Shown here: one piece after another, positions 4,038 to 39,316 of the stretch
Numbering within the stretch: the first letter of the stretch is position 1
How the letters are laid out: each line of letters starts with the position of its first letter
DNA from: a virus
IMG/VR virus record: IMGVR_UViG_3300023099_000012
Coordinates: 1-41,913 of that record
Length of the DNA: 41,913 bases
Strand: one strand, 5' to 3'
Made by a program: the position numbers and the translations under genes
The notes under the pieces: model-generated
The model's input: the letters and a program-made list of their open reading frames with translations, nothing else
The model's database searches: none
Told to the model about the DNA's origin: nothing

Positions 4038-4134
4038 TATATTTGTTTTAGGTAAGTAAGGCAACCTTGAAAATTTATTATCCCGTTCATTGGCTAGCCT
4101 TACAGCCTTTGGATGGGAATTTTAATTTACACAT
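4038..4134 (+). promoter_or_regulatory. Promoter plus pseudoknotted leader RNA, copy A
   Basis: The promoter box TATATTTG is at 4038-4045, with a possible upstream TTG at 4019. The leader contains S1a GTAAGGC (4056-4062) pairing with S1b GCCTTAC (4097-4103); S2a TCCC (4081-4084) with S2b GGGA (4115-4118); and S3a GGCT (4092-4095) with S3b AGCC (4104-4107). S3b directly follows S1b, so S1b is the loop of the S3 hairpin and pairs back to the RNA's 5' end. S2b is followed by a T-rich stretch. The layout matches copies C, D and E. Function unknown. Confidence 0.65.
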
Positions 4135-4854: not shown

Positions 4855-4977
4855 TTGCCATACAATGAAATAAATTACTATATTTGCCTAAACCTATATG
4901 AAGATGTATAGAACCTCTACTTATAACTTAATCCCTTCTTACTTGATTGTAGGCAGGGATTTTTTACGTTTTAATTA
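4855..4977 (+). promoter_or_regulatory. Promoter plus structured leader of the structural operon, copy B (degenerate)
   Basis: Possible -33 TTG at 4855-4857 and -7 box TATATTTG at 4879-4886, with a 21-base spacer. The leader has a clear S2 pair, AATCCC (4930-4935) with GGGATT (4956-4961), running into a T tract. A CTAC/GTAG pair (4917-4920 / 4949-4952) crosses S2, and there is a local hairpin CTATA/TATAG at 4894-4909. The S3 stem seen at other copies is not evident, so membership in the leader family is less certain here. It drives the portal gene. Confidence 0.5.
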
Positions 4978-6270
4978 ATGAGTTGGATAAAAGATAAGCT
5001 ACGTTCTTGGCTGACTTTAGACGAATTTCTGTTAAACAGCAATACTCTAAATACCGTAAGCCTACACGGAGCAACTCCGATGTTTAACAATTATGGGGAT
5101 GATGTAAAAAAACTTCAGGTAGTATTAAGCAATCCGGCATTATTGAAAGTAATAAGCCTTCAGTGTGATTTATTTTCGTTGGGACAGATTTATGTTTACC
5201 AAGACGGAAAGGAAGTGGAAAATGATCCGTTCATTGAAATGATAAAAAGACCCAACCCATATCAAAGGGGTTCTCAGTTTCTTTGGGATTTTATGTTTTG
5301 GAATATGCTTGGAAACGACTACATATACATTGACAGCAAGGTTGTATCAGACAAGAACAAGATGTATCTTTTAGAGCATAGCAAGATGGATTTTCCAAAT
5401 GATATGAAAAAAAGATCAGACAAGCTAATTTTGTCAAATTCAGAAGCCGAAAAGGATTTTGCAATAACCTACAAGTATGATGACGGAACGTCAACTCCAT
5501 TGCTATGGTCAAGGATAATTCACATTCCAGACCTGACTAACGGGACTGGGAACTGGTACAAGGGCAACAGCCGTATTGATGCGCTAACAAAGATTTTAAG
5601 CAATTCAGAAGCGTCTTTGGATGCAAAAAACATAAATATCAGGTATTCTGAAAAGTTTATGGTAGCTGGGCAATCAGACCCAGACAACGTCACTGAATTG
5701 CCTTTGTCGGAAACTGAAAAGAATGATATTGAAAGCAAGATGAACGGAAGGAAAAACGTTCACGCCGTAAAATCGATGATTGACATAAAAAGATTCGTTT
5801 CAGATATTGGGGCATTGAAACTTGATGAAAGTTATTTAGCAGATTATTTCTTGATAGGATCGATGTATGGAATTCCTAAAGATGTTCTTGAAGCTTTTAA
5901 CTCTGGAACTTATGAAAATCAAGAAAAGGCAAGAGGGGCGCAAGTAAGTTACTGCCTTCAGCCAAAAGGAAATATTCTTTGCGAGAGCCTTAAGGATTAT
6001 TTCGGTTACCAAAAAGACATATTTATAGACTGGGAACATTTGCCATTTATGCAGGTTTTCGCAAAAGACAGGGCAGAAACAAGAAGGGCATATTCATTCA
6101 CATTATTGAATTTACAAAAAGCAGGTCTTAGCCTTGAAGATATAAACCAATTCCTTGACACCAATTTCTCGGAATTAAACCCAATCCAAAATGAACAAGC
6201 AGGAGGAATTAACAGCCTTGAAAACGACAATGGAGAAGGAAACCAATCCACAAATCAAGGAGGCAATTAG
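4978..6270 (+). CDS. Portal protein (HK97-like)
   Basis: A 430-residue protein fitting the phage portal family: N-terminal MSWIKDKLRSW, central NPYQRGSQFLWDFMFWNMLGNDYIYI and later WSRIIHIPDLTN, a typical order of helices and beta strands. It forms the dodecameric ring for DNA entry and tail attachment. It lies between the terminase block and the prohead protease, as expected. The C-terminal 30 residues are Asn/Gln/Gly-rich and overlap a second frame (6191-6316). Confidence 0.9.
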   Translation: MSWIKDKLRSWLTLDEFLLNSNTLNTVSLHGATPMFNNYGDDVKKLQVVLSNPALLKVISLQCDLFSLGQIYVYQDGKEVENDPFIEMIKRPNPYQRGSQFLWDFMFWNMLGNDYIYIDSKVVSDKNKMYLLEHSKMDFPNDMKKRSDKLILSNSEAEKDFAITYKYDDGTSTPLLWSRIIHIPDLTNGTGNWYKGNSRIDALTKILSNSEASLDAKNINIRYSEKFMVAGQSDPDNVTELPLSETEKNDIESKMNGRKNVHAVKSMIDIKRFVSDIGALKLDESYLADYFLIGSMYGIPKDVLEAFNSGTYENQEKARGAQVSYCLQPKGNILCESLKDYFGYQKDIFIDWEHLPFMQVFAKDRAETRRAYSFTLLNLQKAGLSLEDINQFLDTNFSELNPIQNEQAGGINSLENDNGEGNQSTNQGGN

Positions 6271-23523: not shown

Positions 23524-23567
23524 TATATTTGTACTCAGATAGTAACACAACATTAAAACACAATATT
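23524..23567 (+). promoter_or_regulatory. Promoter and short leader, duplicated at 30050
   Basis: Box TATATTTG at 23524-23531. The following 5' UTR (GTAC.CAGATA...ACATTAAAACACAATATT) up to the ATG is nearly identical to 30057-30090, with one substitution and a 3-base difference near the start. The shared leader implies co-regulation of the operons at 23.5 and 30.1 kb. Confidence 0.75.
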
Positions 23568-27315: not shown

Positions 27316-27408
27316 GTTTATTTTGGCTGAGTGGTGATGGCGTCTGCATTCCGAAAGAGTTCGGCTCTTGTGCAGAAGGAGTTTAGGTTCAAATCCTAAT
27401 TTATAAAC
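27316..27408 (+). ncRNA. tRNA-like small RNA
   Basis: About 93 nt with tRNA features but no normal anticodon arm. Ends GTTTAT (27316-27321) and ATAAAC (27403-27408) pair. The D-arm reads GCT...GGC (27326-27341, with GAGTGGT). The T-arm is TTAGG-TTCAAAT-CCTAA (27383-27399). In place of a 17-nt anticodon arm is a long arm, TCTGCA (27343) / TGCAGA (27371), enclosing AAGAG / CTCTT. No CCA is encoded. It has its own promoter and terminator. It could be a decayed or unusual tRNA, or a tRNA mimic. Confidence 0.55.
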
Positions 27409-28329: not shown

Positions 28330-28464
28330 TTTGGATTGACCCGTAATTTGTATTAGATTTGCTTTACGGAGTGGTAGCCGAAACAAAATTAATGAGAACT
28401 CTCAATGCTATGCGACTACCACCGCTGGTATTGGGAGTTTTTCGATTTAAACAATAACTTAGAT
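28330..28464 (+). promoter_or_regulatory. Promoter plus pseudoknotted leader RNA, copy C
   Basis: Promoter: TTTG 28330-28333, 20-base spacer, TAGATTTG 28354-28361. Leader: S1a GTGGTAG (28371-28377) with S1b CTACCAC (28416-28422); S2a AACTCTC (28397-28403) with S2b GGGAGTT (28433-28439, one U.G); S3a GCG (28412-28414) with S3b CGC (28423-28425). S3b directly abuts S1b, and S2b runs into five T. A 21-codon ORF (28392-28457) overlaps it and is probably incidental. Confidence 0.75.
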
Positions 28465-28602: not shown

Positions 28603-28876
28603 AATTGATGCCGTTAACTTAAAGTTTGGGTACAAACTACTTGTGCTTATGTTGGATCATTTTGAGTACAAAGAAGAATATGAGATATGTCAGGAAATAA
28701 ACAATAAACTTGACAATATTGAAAAATATTTTGGCATTGAAATAGAAAGATTTATAGATAAAGGTTTTATTGAAGATTATGTTGCAGAATTTTGGAAGTT
28801 TGGTTTGTCAGGAGATACTGCGTTAAGTAATTTGCCTTTTTATATTAAAGAGTCTATTGAAATAATAAGCCAATGA
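28586..28876 (+). CDS. Hypothetical protein, 96 aa
   Basis: A soluble, mostly helical, acidic protein (MELKNKIDAVNLKFGYKLLV...). No family recognised. It overlaps the SLOG gene start by 4 bases. Confidence 0.65.
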   Translation: MELKNKIDAVNLKFGYKLLVLMLDHFEYKEEYEICQEINNKLDNIEKYFGIEIERFIDKGFIEDYVAEFWKFGLSGDTALSNLPFYIKESIEIISQ

Positions 28877-29250
28877 AAATAGCAATAGTAGGAAGTAGAA
28901 GGTTTGTAAATTATGCTATGTTTTCGTCAAAAGTAGATGAGATATTAAAAGATACAGACAAGAGTAACTTGATTATCGTTAGCGGTGGTGCTTTAGGAGT
29001 TGATTCAATGGCTAAAGATTATGCCAAATATAATAAGCTGGGTTATTTAGAATTTCTTCCTGATTATCAAAAATATGAAGGCAAAATAGCTCCTTTGAAA
29101 AGAAATGAATTGATAGCCAATGAATGCGATAAAATGATTGCATTCCAGCTTAATAATTCTAACGGAACTAATCACGTAGTGGCATTGGCTAAAAAACTTG
29201 GAAAAAAGGTTAAGCTAATAAAATTAACTACTAATACTTGGAACGAATGA
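28873..29250 (+). CDS. SLOG-domain (YspA/DUF2493-like) protein
   Basis: A 125-residue Rossmann-like protein: MKIAIVGSRRF, IIVSGGALGVDSMAKDYAKY, FLPDYQKYEGKIAPLKRNEL and SNGTNHVVALAKKLGKKV follow the YspA-type SLOG pattern (nucleotide-binding GSR and SGGA.GVD loops, K/RN element, GT loop). SLOG proteins bind nucleotides or nucleotide-derived signals and are linked to conflict and defence systems. The phage role is unknown. It overlaps neighbours by 4 bases each side. Confidence 0.85.
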   Translation: MKIAIVGSRRFVNYAMFSSKVDEILKDTDKSNLIIVSGGALGVDSMAKDYAKYNKLGYLEFLPDYQKYEGKIAPLKRNELIANECDKMIAFQLNNSNGTNHVVALAKKLGKKVKLIKLTTNTWNE

Positions 29251-34156: not shown

Positions 34157-34330
34157 TTGTTATTTAGGAATATTATCGTAAATTTGTTTAATGCTTACTT
34201 CTCACAAAATACTAAGCAACAGTATAGCATAAGTGCTACAATGATAAAGACCGTGAGAAGCTTTTGACTTGTAGCACTTCTTTTTTTAAACTTATTATTT
34301 TGTTTGTTTTAAAATAAACATTCACAAATT
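34157..34330 (+). promoter_or_regulatory. Promoter plus pseudoknotted leader RNA with terminator, copy D
   Basis: TTG 34157-34159, 19-base spacer, TAAATTTG 34179-34186. Leader: S1a CTTCTCAC (34198-34205) with S1b GTGAGAAG (34253-34260); S2a AGTGCTACA (34232-34240) with S2b TGTAGCACT (34270-34278); S3a AAAG (34246-34249) with S3b CTTT (34261-34264). A local hairpin ATACT/AGTAT lies between S1a and S2a. S2 is followed by TC and seven T, so S2 alone is a terminator (attenuator) before the replication genes. Confidence 0.78.
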
Positions 34331-34564
34331 ATGGCAGATGTCAGCATTATTTTTAAAGGTTCTGTTAATACTTCAACAGAAGAAAATCAGTTAGAGGTTT
34401 TTGCCAATATGCAAAATAAAGTATCAATAACTATTTTTGATCCAAATTTTAACCAAAATGGTTATCCTAATGTAATTCAATTAAACAGAGAAACAGCTAT
34501 TAAGTTTCACAGAGAATTGAAAAAACAAATATCTTTTTTAGAAAGTGGGGTGCAAGATGTCTAA
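34331..34564 (+). CDS. Hypothetical protein, 77 aa
   Basis: First gene after leader D. MADVSIIFKGSVNTSTEENQ...; a small beta-rich protein with a helical end (AIKFHRELKKQISFLE). No family recognised. It overlaps the replication-initiator gene. Confidence 0.65.
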   Translation: MADVSIIFKGSVNTSTEENQLEVFANMQNKVSITIFDPNFNQNGYPNVIQLNRETAIKFHRELKKQISFLESGVQDV

Positions 34565-35261
34565 GCTTGGATACACTTGGTATCCAAAAGACTGGGGTAA
34601 TTCTGAAAGCGTTTTTGAGCTTAATTTGTCAGAACGTGGATTATACCGTGAATTGATAGATTTAGCTATGCTTAACGACAATAAGACTGAAATTAAGTTA
34701 GATGTTTGGAGCAGAAAATTTGCCGTAAGCATAGATGATTTAAAATCAATTTTAGGAAAATTGTCAATTCTTGGATTGACCGAAATTAAAGGCGAATTAT
34801 TGTTTATTCCAAGTTGCGAAAGTAGGTTAAATTTAGTTCGAGGCGGAGCAAAAGGAGGGGTAAAAAGTAAGCCTCCAAAGAAGCCTATAGTGAAGCCTAT
34901 TGAAAGCCTTTTTGAAAATAATGATAAGCCTATAGTGAACCAAATAGAAAAGAAAGGAAATATAAAAGAAAAAGAAACTAAAACAGAAATAGAAAATAAA
35001 CCAACTAAAAATGATTTAATTTATTTTGAACTTTCAATTTCTGAACAATGGATAGAAAGTACAGCTATGCAGTCTTTGAAAAAACTAAACGTTGAAATGG
35101 TTAAAAATTTTCTAAAATCATATAACGATATGCTGAATGTTCAGTTTGATTTTAAAAACAATAAAACTGAATATTGCACTCATTTTATAAATTGGCTAAA
35201 CAAACAAGATAAGCCGATTAAAAAAAATAGTCATCCGGCAAAAAGAGATATTTTACAATGA
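34557..35261 (+). CDS. Replication initiator / helicase-loader-like protein
   Basis: ATG 34557 preferred over GTG 34545. Residues 1-95 (YTWYPKDWGNSESVFELNLS, then ERGLYRELIDLAM) are the winged-helix start of DUF1376-type phage replication proteins. A Lys/Pro-rich linker follows, then a C-terminal domain of about 75 residues (SEQWIESTAMQSLKKL...FLKSYNDML) like the DnaD/DUF7833 tail. It is immediately upstream of the primase-helicase (4-base overlap), so it probably loads or recruits it. Confidence 0.72.
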   Translation: MSKLGYTWYPKDWGNSESVFELNLSERGLYRELIDLAMLNDNKTEIKLDVWSRKFAVSIDDLKSILGKLSILGLTEIKGELLFIPSCESRLNLVRGGAKGGVKSKPPKKPIVKPIESLFENNDKPIVNQIEKKGNIKEKETKTEIENKPTKNDLIYFELSISEQWIESTAMQSLKKLNVEMVKNFLKSYNDMLNVQFDFKNNKTEYCTHFINWLNKQDKPIKKNSHPAKRDILQ

Positions 35262-37060
35262 AAAATATACACGATTGGAATTTAATTCAAACGAATAAGG
35301 TTTCGGGAACTGCAAAAGTAAAATGTCCAATTTGTACCGATGAAAGAAAAAACAAAACAGACAAATCACTTTACATAAATTTTAATTCAGGTGTAGGAAA
35401 GTGTTTTCATTGCGAGGGATTGTTTTTTCGTGACAGCATTGAAAGGTCAATTGAAAAAACAGATTACACTTTGCCTGTTCAGACTTGGAAAAATTACACG
35501 AACATTTCGGATATTTTCGTGAAGGGATGCGAGGCAAGAAAAATAAGCCAAAGCACATTGATTAATTTGGGAATAACCCAAGAAACATTTTACCAGCCTA
35601 AATTAAATTCAGAAGTAGATAATTTGGTTTTCAACTATTTCGAGGGGGATACCGTTGTCAATAAAAAATACAGGGGCAAAGGAAAATCATTTACGCAGAG
35701 TAAAAATGCCAAGTCAATATTTTACAACATAAATTCAATAATCGGTCAAGATGAATGCTACATAGTCGAGGGAGAATTTGATGTTCTTGCATTTTACGAG
35801 ATTGGAATTAAAAATGTAATTTCAGTTCCGAACGGGGCAAACGACAATGACAATTACTGGCTGAATTCTGAAAAGTATATCAAAGACGTTAAGAGGTTTT
35901 ATGTGGCCACCGACAATGACGAAAAAGGAAATGAGGTTGCTGAAAAGATTGCGCAGCGACTAGGAAGGTACAGATGCGAAAGGGTATTGTTTGATGGAAA
36001 AGACGCAAACGATGACTTGATAAATGGTGTTCTTGAAAAAACCGCATACAAGACACAAAAATACCCAGTTTCCGGAACTTTCAAGGTATCTGACGTAATA
36101 GATGGGATAATAAACCTTTACGAAAACGGTATGCCGGAAACAATTTACCCGAAACATCATTGCTTCGGTAATCTTAAAAATGTGTTTTCGGTTATGAGGG
36201 GACATTTGGTTACCGGAACTGGAATACCATCACACGGGAAGTCAAATTTCACGGAGTGGTATGTCTTGAACCTGATAAAAGATTACAATATGAAAGCATC
36301 TTTTTTCAGTCCGGAACATCATCCTTTCGAGTTGCACCACACCACATTCATTGAAAAGGTTTTTGCAAAGAATTTCTTTTACGATAATCCAGGATGTCCC
36401 AGAATTTCCAAAGAGGATATTTCACGTTACCAAGAATGGGCTGAAGAAAAAATATATCTAACGGGCACGGAAAACGGGGAATTTCCAACTTGGGATTGGC
36501 TATTTGAAAAATTCAAGGAGCAGATGTTTAATTACGGGATTGATATCTTTGTTATTGACGCATTCAATAAATTGGGATTCGACAAAAAAGGAAACAAGCT
36601 TGACCAGATAAACGAGGTTCTGACAAAATTAACGATGTTTAGCCAAATGCACAATGTCATAATTTTCTTGGTTGCACACCCTACAAAAATGCAAAAGGGT
36701 TCTGATGGTTTTTATAACTCCCCAACCCTTTACGATGTTTCTGGAAGTTCTGATTTCAGAAACCAGACGCACGATGGGTTTAGCGTTTACCGTTATTTCG
36801 GGAATGAGGAAAGCGACGCAAAGACAGTTTTCGAAAACCTAAAGACAAAAATGAAATTTCAAGGAGAAATAGGGGGTTCTCAGGAATTCGAATACCACTT
36901 GCCAAGCGGACGTTATTATGAATTAGGCACTCAACCGCCAACCCATTGCCTTATAGATGAATTTATAGAACCTCAGCAGGAATTAAAAGAATTGCCAAAG
37001 ATTGATGCAAAAGATGCATTTGGAGAACCTTATGAAGAAGATGAAAATATTCCATTTTAA
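35258..37060 (+). CDS. Primase-helicase (T7 gp4/Twinkle-like)
   Basis: 600 residues. Zinc-binding domain: C23, C26, C49, C52 (CPIC...CFHC). TOPRIM domain: YIVEGEFDVLAF (E171) and ATDNDEKG (D219, D221). RecA-like helicase: Walker A GIPSHGKS at 322-329, Walker B FVIDAF (D434), then IIFLVAHPTK and SGSSDFRNQTHDGFSVYR, the DnaB-type arginine/glutamine loop region. It combines primer synthesis and unwinding. No DNA polymerase gene is seen, so the host enzyme must be used. Confidence 0.92.
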   Translation: MKNIHDWNLIQTNKVSGTAKVKCPICTDERKNKTDKSLYINFNSGVGKCFHCEGLFFRDSIERSIEKTDYTLPVQTWKNYTNISDIFVKGCEARKISQSTLINLGITQETFYQPKLNSEVDNLVFNYFEGDTVVNKKYRGKGKSFTQSKNAKSIFYNINSIIGQDECYIVEGEFDVLAFYEIGIKNVISVPNGANDNDNYWLNSEKYIKDVKRFYVATDNDEKGNEVAEKIAQRLGRYRCERVLFDGKDANDDLINGVLEKTAYKTQKYPVSGTFKVSDVIDGIINLYENGMPETIYPKHHCFGNLKNVFSVMRGHLVTGTGIPSHGKSNFTEWYVLNLIKDYNMKASFFSPEHHPFELHHTTFIEKVFAKNFFYDNPGCPRISKEDISRYQEWAEEKIYLTGTENGEFPTWDWLFEKFKEQMFNYGIDIFVIDAFNKLGFDKKGNKLDQINEVLTKLTMFSQMHNVIIFLVAHPTKMQKGSDGFYNSPTLYDVSGSSDFRNQTHDGFSVYRYFGNEESDAKTVFENLKTKMKFQGEIGGSQEFEYHLPSGRYYELGTQPPTHCLIDEFIEPQQELKELPKIDAKDAFGEPYEEDENIPF

Positions 37061-38542: not shown

Positions 38543-38641
38543 TATATTTACAACACAAAAATCCGCCAAGATTTAAAAATTTAAACTAATCCCTATTGGG
38601 TCTTTTACTTGGCGGTAAGACTTGATGGGGATTTTTATATT
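38543..38641 (+). promoter_or_regulatory. Promoter plus pseudoknotted leader RNA, copy E
   Basis: Box TATATTTA 38543-38550. S1a CCGCCAAG (38563-38570) with S1b CTTGGCGG (38608-38615), 8 bp perfect; S2a AATCCC (38588-38593) with S2b GGGATT (38628-38633); S3a GTCTT (38600-38604) with S3b AAGAC (38617-38621). S2b leads into a T-rich stretch and the ATG at 38642. A 6-codon ORF starting at 38624 overlaps S2b. Confidence 0.78.
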
Positions 38642-39316
38642 ATGAAAAAACTTAAAATATTAGTTGGTTGCGAAGAAAGTCAGACTGTGTGTTTGGAATT
38701 CAGAAAACTTGGAATTGAAGCTTACAGTAGTGATGTTCAAGAGTGCTCAGGAGGTCATCCTGAGTGGCATATAGTAGGTGATATTTTAGACGTGAAAACT
38801 GCTGGGGCATTTAACACTCAAAATGGAGACTACGTATTTATTGATAAATGGGATTTAGCTATATTCCACCCTCCTTGTACGTATCTGTCAAATGCTGGAG
38901 CAAGATTTTTATATCCAAAAGGAATTCTGAATCAAGATCGTTATCAAAAAGGTTTAAAAGGAAAAGAACTTTTTATGCAACTTTTAGATTCACCTATAGA
39001 ATTTATTTGTGTAGAGAATCCGGTTTCAAGTAAAATATTTGATTTACCAAAACATTCGCAGCAAATACAACCCTACCATTTTGGACATCCTTTTACAAAA
39101 AAAACCAGACTTTGGTTAAAAGGCTTGCCAGACTTAAAATTTACAGATATAATTGAAAATGTAGATACTTCGTATTTACCATCAAATACGGGTGGGTCAA
39201 AAAGAGGTCAGAAGTTTCAAATTAAGACAGTTAAGCCTGAAAACACTAAACTTGCAGGTAATTGGTTTAATAAAGGCGGAAAAGATCGCCAAAAAAATAG
39301 AAGTAAGACATTTTGA
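38642..39316 (+). CDS. Cytosine DNA methyltransferase-like protein, C-terminus out of frame
   Basis: ATG 38642 (MKKLKILVGCEESQTVCLEF). The earlier start in this frame lies within leader E and is rejected. HPPCTYLSNAG holds the PPC catalytic Cys of C5-cytosine methylases, with VENPVSS as an ENV-like motif and FGHPFTKKTRLWLKGLP after it. 224 residues to TGA 39314. The family usually ends ...KTF.GIA.AMAEQW; here EGIAKAMAEQW lies in the +1 frame (39315-39374), after a T4 run. A single extra T or a programmed +1 shift at TTT TGA would explain it. Confidence 0.78.
   Translation: MKKLKILVGCEESQTVCLEFRKLGIEAYSSDVQECSGGHPEWHIVGDILDVKTAGAFNTQNGDYVFIDKWDLAIFHPPCTYLSNAGARFLYPKGILNQDRYQKGLKGKELFMQLLDSPIEFICVENPVSSKIFDLPKHSQQIQPYHFGHPFTKKTRLWLKGLPDLKFTDIIENVDTSYLPSNTGGSKRGQKFQIKTVKPENTKLAGNWFNKGGKDRQKNRSKTF

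Follow-up and report, generated by a model that had tools for sequence, protein, structure and literature searches.

Leader D and related elements in the window

The whole stretch of viral DNA analysed here, referred to as the window, is 41,913 nt long. At 34157-34330, a promoter is followed by a folded leader, designated leader D, and then by the replication genes. The features of this locus are as follows.

34157..34186, plus strand: promoter, with TTG at 34157-34159, a 19-nt spacer and TAAATTTG at 34179-34186; the transcriptional start (+1) is expected near 34191
34192..34218, plus strand: hairpin P1, TGCTTA (34192-34197) paired with TAAGCA (34213-34218); first pair at about +2, S1a in the loop
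34198..34205, plus strand: S1a, CTTCTCAC, in the P1 loop; one half of the kissing helix
34231..34279, plus strand: terminator hairpin, with stem S2 of 11 bp (34231-34241/34269-34279)
34246-34249/34261-34264, plus strand: S3, AAAG/CTTT, inside the terminator hairpin
Between S2 and S3, plus strand: internal loop TGAT/TGAC of the terminator hairpin
34253..34260, plus strand: S1b, GTGAGAAG, in the loop at the tip of the terminator hairpin; complementary to S1a at 8/8 positions
34280..34291, plus strand: U-tract, CTTTTTTTAAAC, adjoining S2
34331..34564, plus strand: first gene, 77 aa, no family match
Next gene, plus strand: DUF7833-like, a weak assignment
35258-37060, plus strand: primase-helicase gene, behind the 77-aa and DUF7833-like genes

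All pairings that a first-pass annotation had named for leader D were present in the sequence, including the complete S1a-S1b pairing and the short AAAG/CTTT stem between its halves. The 9-bp main stem of that annotation was also found, contained in the longer S2 listed above, and CTTTTTTT follows this 11-bp stem directly on the 3' side. Hairpin P1 had been overlooked: S1a does not lie on an unpaired 5' strand but forms the loop of this hairpin. The proposed arrangement of a terminator stem with a pseudoknot-type pairing, right after a promoter and before replication genes, was supported in leader D.

Four further leaders were located in the window.

4038..4128, plus strand: leader A; box 4038-4045, P1 4050-4053/4064-4067, S1a 4056-4062 (GTAAGGC), S2 4081-4089/4110-4118, S3 4092-4095/4104-4107, S1b 4097-4103 and U-tract 4119-4128
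4879..4972, plus strand: leader B, a weak member; box 4879-4886, S1 of about 6 bp (CCTATA 4893-4898/TGTAGG 4948-4953), S2 4930-4936/4955-4961, U-tract from 4962; before a gene at 4978
28354..28450, plus strand: leader C; box TAGATTTG 28354-28361, P1 CGG/CCG 28367-28369/28378-28380, S1a 28371-28377, S2 28397-28410/28426-28439, S3 28412-28414/28423-28425, S1b 28416-28422 and U-tract from 28440
38543..38640, plus strand: leader E; box TATATTTA, P1 38559-38562/38571-38574, S1a 38563-38570 (CCGCCAAG), S2 38588-38603/38618-38633, S1b 38608-38615 and U-tract from 38634

The recurrence of the layout had been anticipated, and it held for leaders A and E; leader C was also recovered, with its box at 28354 and not near 28330. 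The possible fifth copy, expected near 4855, corresponds to leader B; the relative of leader B at L054:9407 has an S1 of 7 bp. In leaders A to E, each S1a fits its own S1b only. A DNA methyltransferase gene (ATG at 38642) lies directly behind leader E. The operon behind leader C contains a gene for a SLOG/DprA-like protein (DNA_processg_A, YspA-type) at 28873-29250.

Promoters at 23524, 25438 and 30050 of the same phage have no such element; therefore, the element is not needed for expression as such. The promoters at 23524 and 30050 share a common start region, TATATTTGTAC.CAGATA..AA...ACATTAAAACA, and each is preceded by a strong ordinary terminator. They possibly represent an earlier promoter class.

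Two other observations were made in the window. An identical 124-base stretch is present at both contig ends (10-133 and 41790-41913), and the genome is therefore either circular or has terminal redundancy. Between two terminators, at 27317-27407, lies a tRNA-like sequence whose anticodon arm is enlarged; it matched the Rfam tRNA family weakly (24.6 bits against a cut-off of 29) and was not called by ARAGORN.

Common fold and covariation of the leaders

Elements in the order S1a, S2a, S1b, S2b and U-run were searched for using dinucleotide shuffles as the control and energy cut-offs chosen in this analysis. The window contained five layouts at or below −28 kcal/mol, whereas 300 shuffles gave a mean of 0.23 and a maximum of 3. 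Four of the five are leaders A, C, D and E, and the fifth (19363) is intragenic and without a promoter. A further layout match at 1-110 was rejected as an artefact of the overlapping contig ends. We also performed a promoter-anchored scan, which starts from TAnnTTTG boxes and does not require a U-run. At or below −30 kcal/mol, it detected 40 layouts in 108 sequences compared with one in shuffles. In 202 sequences it detected 63 compared with one on the sense strand, and four compared with two on the other strand; leaders of common ancestry in these counts are not independent events. For independent loci, which were fetched by other means and with the fetching patterns left out, the numbers were 27 and 1.

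The same fold was found in at least 67 distinct leaders from Bacteroidota phage contigs and from cultured Flavobacterium and Cellulophaga phages. When the 67 leaders were lined up, the order of parts was the box, the P1 5' arm, S1a, the P1 3' arm, an A-rich linker (median 27 nt from S1a to S2a) and the terminator hairpin. The hairpin consists of S2a, a purine-rich internal loop, S3a, S1b, S3b, a second internal loop and S2b, and is followed by the U-tract. By eye, tandem G-A or AGUA/GAA can often be read in the internal loop that separates S2 from S3. P1 was as stable as −5 kcal/mol or better in 79% of the 67 leaders compared with 11% of shuffles. With the box set at −12 to −5, the position of the sigma-A box in flavobacteria (PMC9723704), the median position of the first P1 base pair is +2 and the last G-C pair of S2 lies at about +87.

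The nucleotide sequence is nearly free across the leaders while all four helices covary. When 12 related leaders were aligned by sequence alone, pairing was 100% for S1 (four doubly changed pairs), 98.6% for P1 (two doubly changed), 97.7% for S2 and 97.9% for S3, with double changes in every helix. The covariation score of this alignment was 0.474 compared with 0.179 after shuffling, and all slid controls failed; among the relatives of the leader D site, the score was 0.545 compared with 0.181. RNAalifold recovered S2 and S3 de novo from the alignment. Homologous pairing in related phages, whose absence would have counted against the first-pass reading, is found, and it shows compensatory changes.

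Because the aligned leaders had been found by their pairing, an independent test was made with a covariance model, R1, built without any S1 pair information. All 31 examined matches outside its training set had complementary loops of 6-11 bp, with a mean energy of −14.6 kcal/mol compared with −7.3 kcal/mol when the loops were swapped. The leaders therefore contain two hairpins with complementary, covarying loops, as in an intramolecular kissing loop: S1a sits in the P1 loop and S1b in the terminator loop, so the pairing is loop to loop. The pseudoknot-type geometry that had been described for leader D is retained, and the relatives replace a linear 5' end pairing to a loop by a kissing complex of two hairpins. 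We consider the predicted four-helix kissing-hairpin structure of the leaders nearly certain.

Kissing-loop RNAs include plasmid countertranscripts and the loops of purine riboswitches, with loop-loop helices of 6-8 bp. The leaders resemble them in having a helix of this kind. Unlike kissing-loop RNAs in general, they kiss intramolecularly, from a 5'-terminal hairpin to a terminator hairpin, and their sequence is free.

Distribution and downstream genes

The element occurs in close relatives in IMG/VR. Leaders were also found in the following cultured phages.

lillamy9-5: 14098
mumin9-1: 11666 and 12701
snusmum6-1: 9708, 13649 and 14684
elemoA: about 9700, minus strand
phi19:1: 10353

A genome carries several mutually non-matching copies. 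The genes behind the leaders include replication, structural and methyltransferase genes, and also HNH and GIY-YIG homing endonuclease genes. In 42 of 86 loci, a leader lay upstream of the primase gene at a distance of no more than 2.2 kb, compared with 13 of 228 control windows. Placement upstream of replication genes, as claimed for leader D, is correct for that leader, but the element is not specific to such genes.

IMG/VR was searched with DNA patterns for two leader types, GTCGTCG and CCGCCAAG. Of these, the GTCGTCG type was found in 51 contigs, with a promoter box in 51/51 and an ORF within 90 nt in 49/51; the start codon is mostly 5-12 nt past the U-tract. The CCGCCAAG type was found in 25 contigs, about 22 of which have the promoter. 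Of ten downstream proteins examined, four were homing endonucleases of the HNH or GIY-YIG type (NUMOD4, NUMOD3) and one was a DNA methyltransferase; another had a weak PD-(D/E)XK assignment and four had none. Nearly the same promoter and leader of the GTCGTCG type (L206-L255) stand before HNH/NUMOD4 and GIY-YIG/NUMOD3 families. Judged from these sequences, the GTCGTCG promoter and leader are a mobile expression module of unrelated homing endonuclease families.

This travelling of two leader types with homing endonuclease genes would also suit a DNA-level element, in which single-strand hairpins act in recombination or in the mobility of homing genes. We regard such a role as very improbable, as the leaders keep a fixed distance to the promoter, lie on one strand in the orientation of the genes, contain G-U pairs in S2 and also precede fixed replication genes.

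RNA hairpins are known upstream of the T4 homing endonuclease genes I-TevI, segB and mobE (PMC2988022). There, as here, a phage homing endonuclease gene that has its own promoter is under the control of a structured leader. The T4 hairpins cover the ribosome binding site when the transcript comes from upstream, whereas the leaders described here leave the start site unmasked and carry a terminator tail.

Rfam gave no match in the whole window at the gathering cut-off, no match in eight leader-bearing loci at E≤1 and only chance matches for leader D. The D region, searched at the nucleotide level against phage records, gave no match either, as expected because the leader sequence is free. The RNA family is previously uncatalogued and belongs to marine and freshwater Flavobacterium-type phages. 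Chromosomal members were not accepted: a shallow search, in which few candidates were scored per genome, gave three matches in 199 genomes of one family, and these were his-operon leaders. The flavobacterial his-operon leader was seen in L203, L204 and L205 at about 1440-1640, with a His-rich leader peptide and a terminator, as off-target matches.

Terminator character and possible mode of action

In the leaders, a U-tract directly adjoins a stable stem, which is the sequence signature of an intrinsic (Rho-independent) terminator. At least four U in the seven bases after the stem were counted in 66 of 67 layouts with P1, although a U-run had not been asked for in their selection. Over its first four to six bases, the U content of the tract matches that of 91 strict ordinary terminators from these phages. 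Farther on, at a fixed distance of 9-11 nt past the outermost G-C pair of S2b, lies another U block (UUU, then A); two or more U were present there in 94% of the leaders and 55% of the ordinary terminators of the same phages. This strictness exceeds that of ordinary terminators, and a simple terminator would not require it. Any termination would be expected to yield a short, stable RNA some 93 nt long.

The elements were not explained as terminators of the upstream operon. Among 221 promoters, their presence had no link with the absence of an upstream terminator (13/49 compared with 41/172), and in lillamy and mumin the element comes after a terminator of its own upstream.

The obligatory terminator tail, placed just after the promoter and before the genes, fits a transcription gate. 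We put at about even the chance that the leaders act as conditional intrinsic terminators, each close to its promoter and braced by a kissing loop within the same RNA; the leader RNA family probably decides whether the downstream genes are read. In this mechanism, RNA polymerase would start at the sigma-A type TAnnTTTG promoter, and the first 30 or so nucleotides would fold at once into P1 with S1a as its loop. When the second hairpin emerges, its S1b loop would kiss the P1 loop (6-11 bp). Since the kissing helix would form before S2b is made, it could change how S2 closes. Closure of S3 and then S2 on the U-tract would complete a compact intrinsic terminator, pseudoknotted, at about +93. Some polymerases would release the short stable RNA and others would read through into the operon, and the balance would set downstream expression. 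Termination cannot be complete, as replication genes lie downstream. The kissing contact would tune this balance and offer a natural control point for a phage factor, a host factor or a modified polymerase. We infer termination in cells, a kissing contact that may either favour or hinder it, and a factor that may relieve it. We give somewhat less than even odds to a more specific form in which the contact of the 5'-terminal hairpin with the terminator loop sets termination efficiency or recruits a phage factor, so that the leader would be a free-sequence phage switch and an interchangeable module of operons and unrelated homing endonucleases.

The first-pass annotation had also considered an attenuator. 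The leader-peptide and riboswitch attenuators, such as the flavobacterial his leader, share the order of promoter, leader, intrinsic terminator and gene, and the covariance search matched his leaders of three genomes. The leaders described here differ in having no competing antiterminator helix, leader peptide or conserved ligand core. A classic attenuator was not supported, as no competing helix rose above the shuffled level: the pairing of S2a or S2b with other parts of the leader does not exceed that in shuffled sequences, and pairing of the U-tract with the linker is at chance level.

The main rival to a conditional terminator is an mRNA-protecting 5' structure, which we consider unlikely. 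P1 and the kissing complex would shield the mRNA from 5'-end dependent decay and leave the start region free, the U-tract being only part of an AU-rich start region. P1 beginning at about +2 is consistent with such a cap, as are the start codon, mostly 10-56 nt past the stem, and the carriage of promoter and leader as a unit by homing endonuclease genes. The 45 nt that follow downstream pair no better than chance with S2b, S1a, S1b or the P1 arm, and the absence of a helix masking the start site also fits. However, the U-tract abuts the stem in nearly every leader and does not shift with the start codon, and element-less start regions are A-rich, not U-rich, at the corresponding place.

Next comes a put-like self-acting antiterminator, rated as more unlikely still, in which the folded nascent RNA would bind the elongating polymerase and pass its own and later terminators. 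HK022 putL and putR are described (PMC9378689) as a leader RNA of about 70 nt with two hairpins right after phage promoters, in more than one operon; its sequence is conserved and it binds the beta' zinc-binding domain of RNA polymerase. The leaders likewise form two hairpins directly after transcription starts, before several operons of one phage, and a put-like action needs no alternative antiterminator helix. In contrast, put lacks a terminator U-tract at its base, loop-loop pairing is not reported for it in that description, and its conserved sequence has no likeness to the leaders. The free choice of loop sequences is also unlike a conserved polymerase-binding RNA.

We find it improbable that the terminated RNA of about 93 nt is itself the product, as a family of stable small RNAs with incidental read-through. 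Hairpins at both ends, the kissing and the terminator tail would suit such RNAs. On the other hand, the leaders always lie close upstream of a start codon, mobile genes included, and, in a single genome, the loops vary in sequence from leader to leader and each fits only its own partner.

Taken as a conditional terminator, the leaders suggest that Bacteroidota phages control transcription through termination in the leader, of which no account was found in the literature searched. Lillamy, mumin, snusmum, elemo and phi19:1 are cultured phages that carry the leader, and it is therefore directly testable. The leaders constitute an RNA family present in several copies per genome in widespread environmental phages, in which the architecture is conserved and the sequence is almost free, and they provide a regulatory RNA module common to unrelated homing endonuclease genes.
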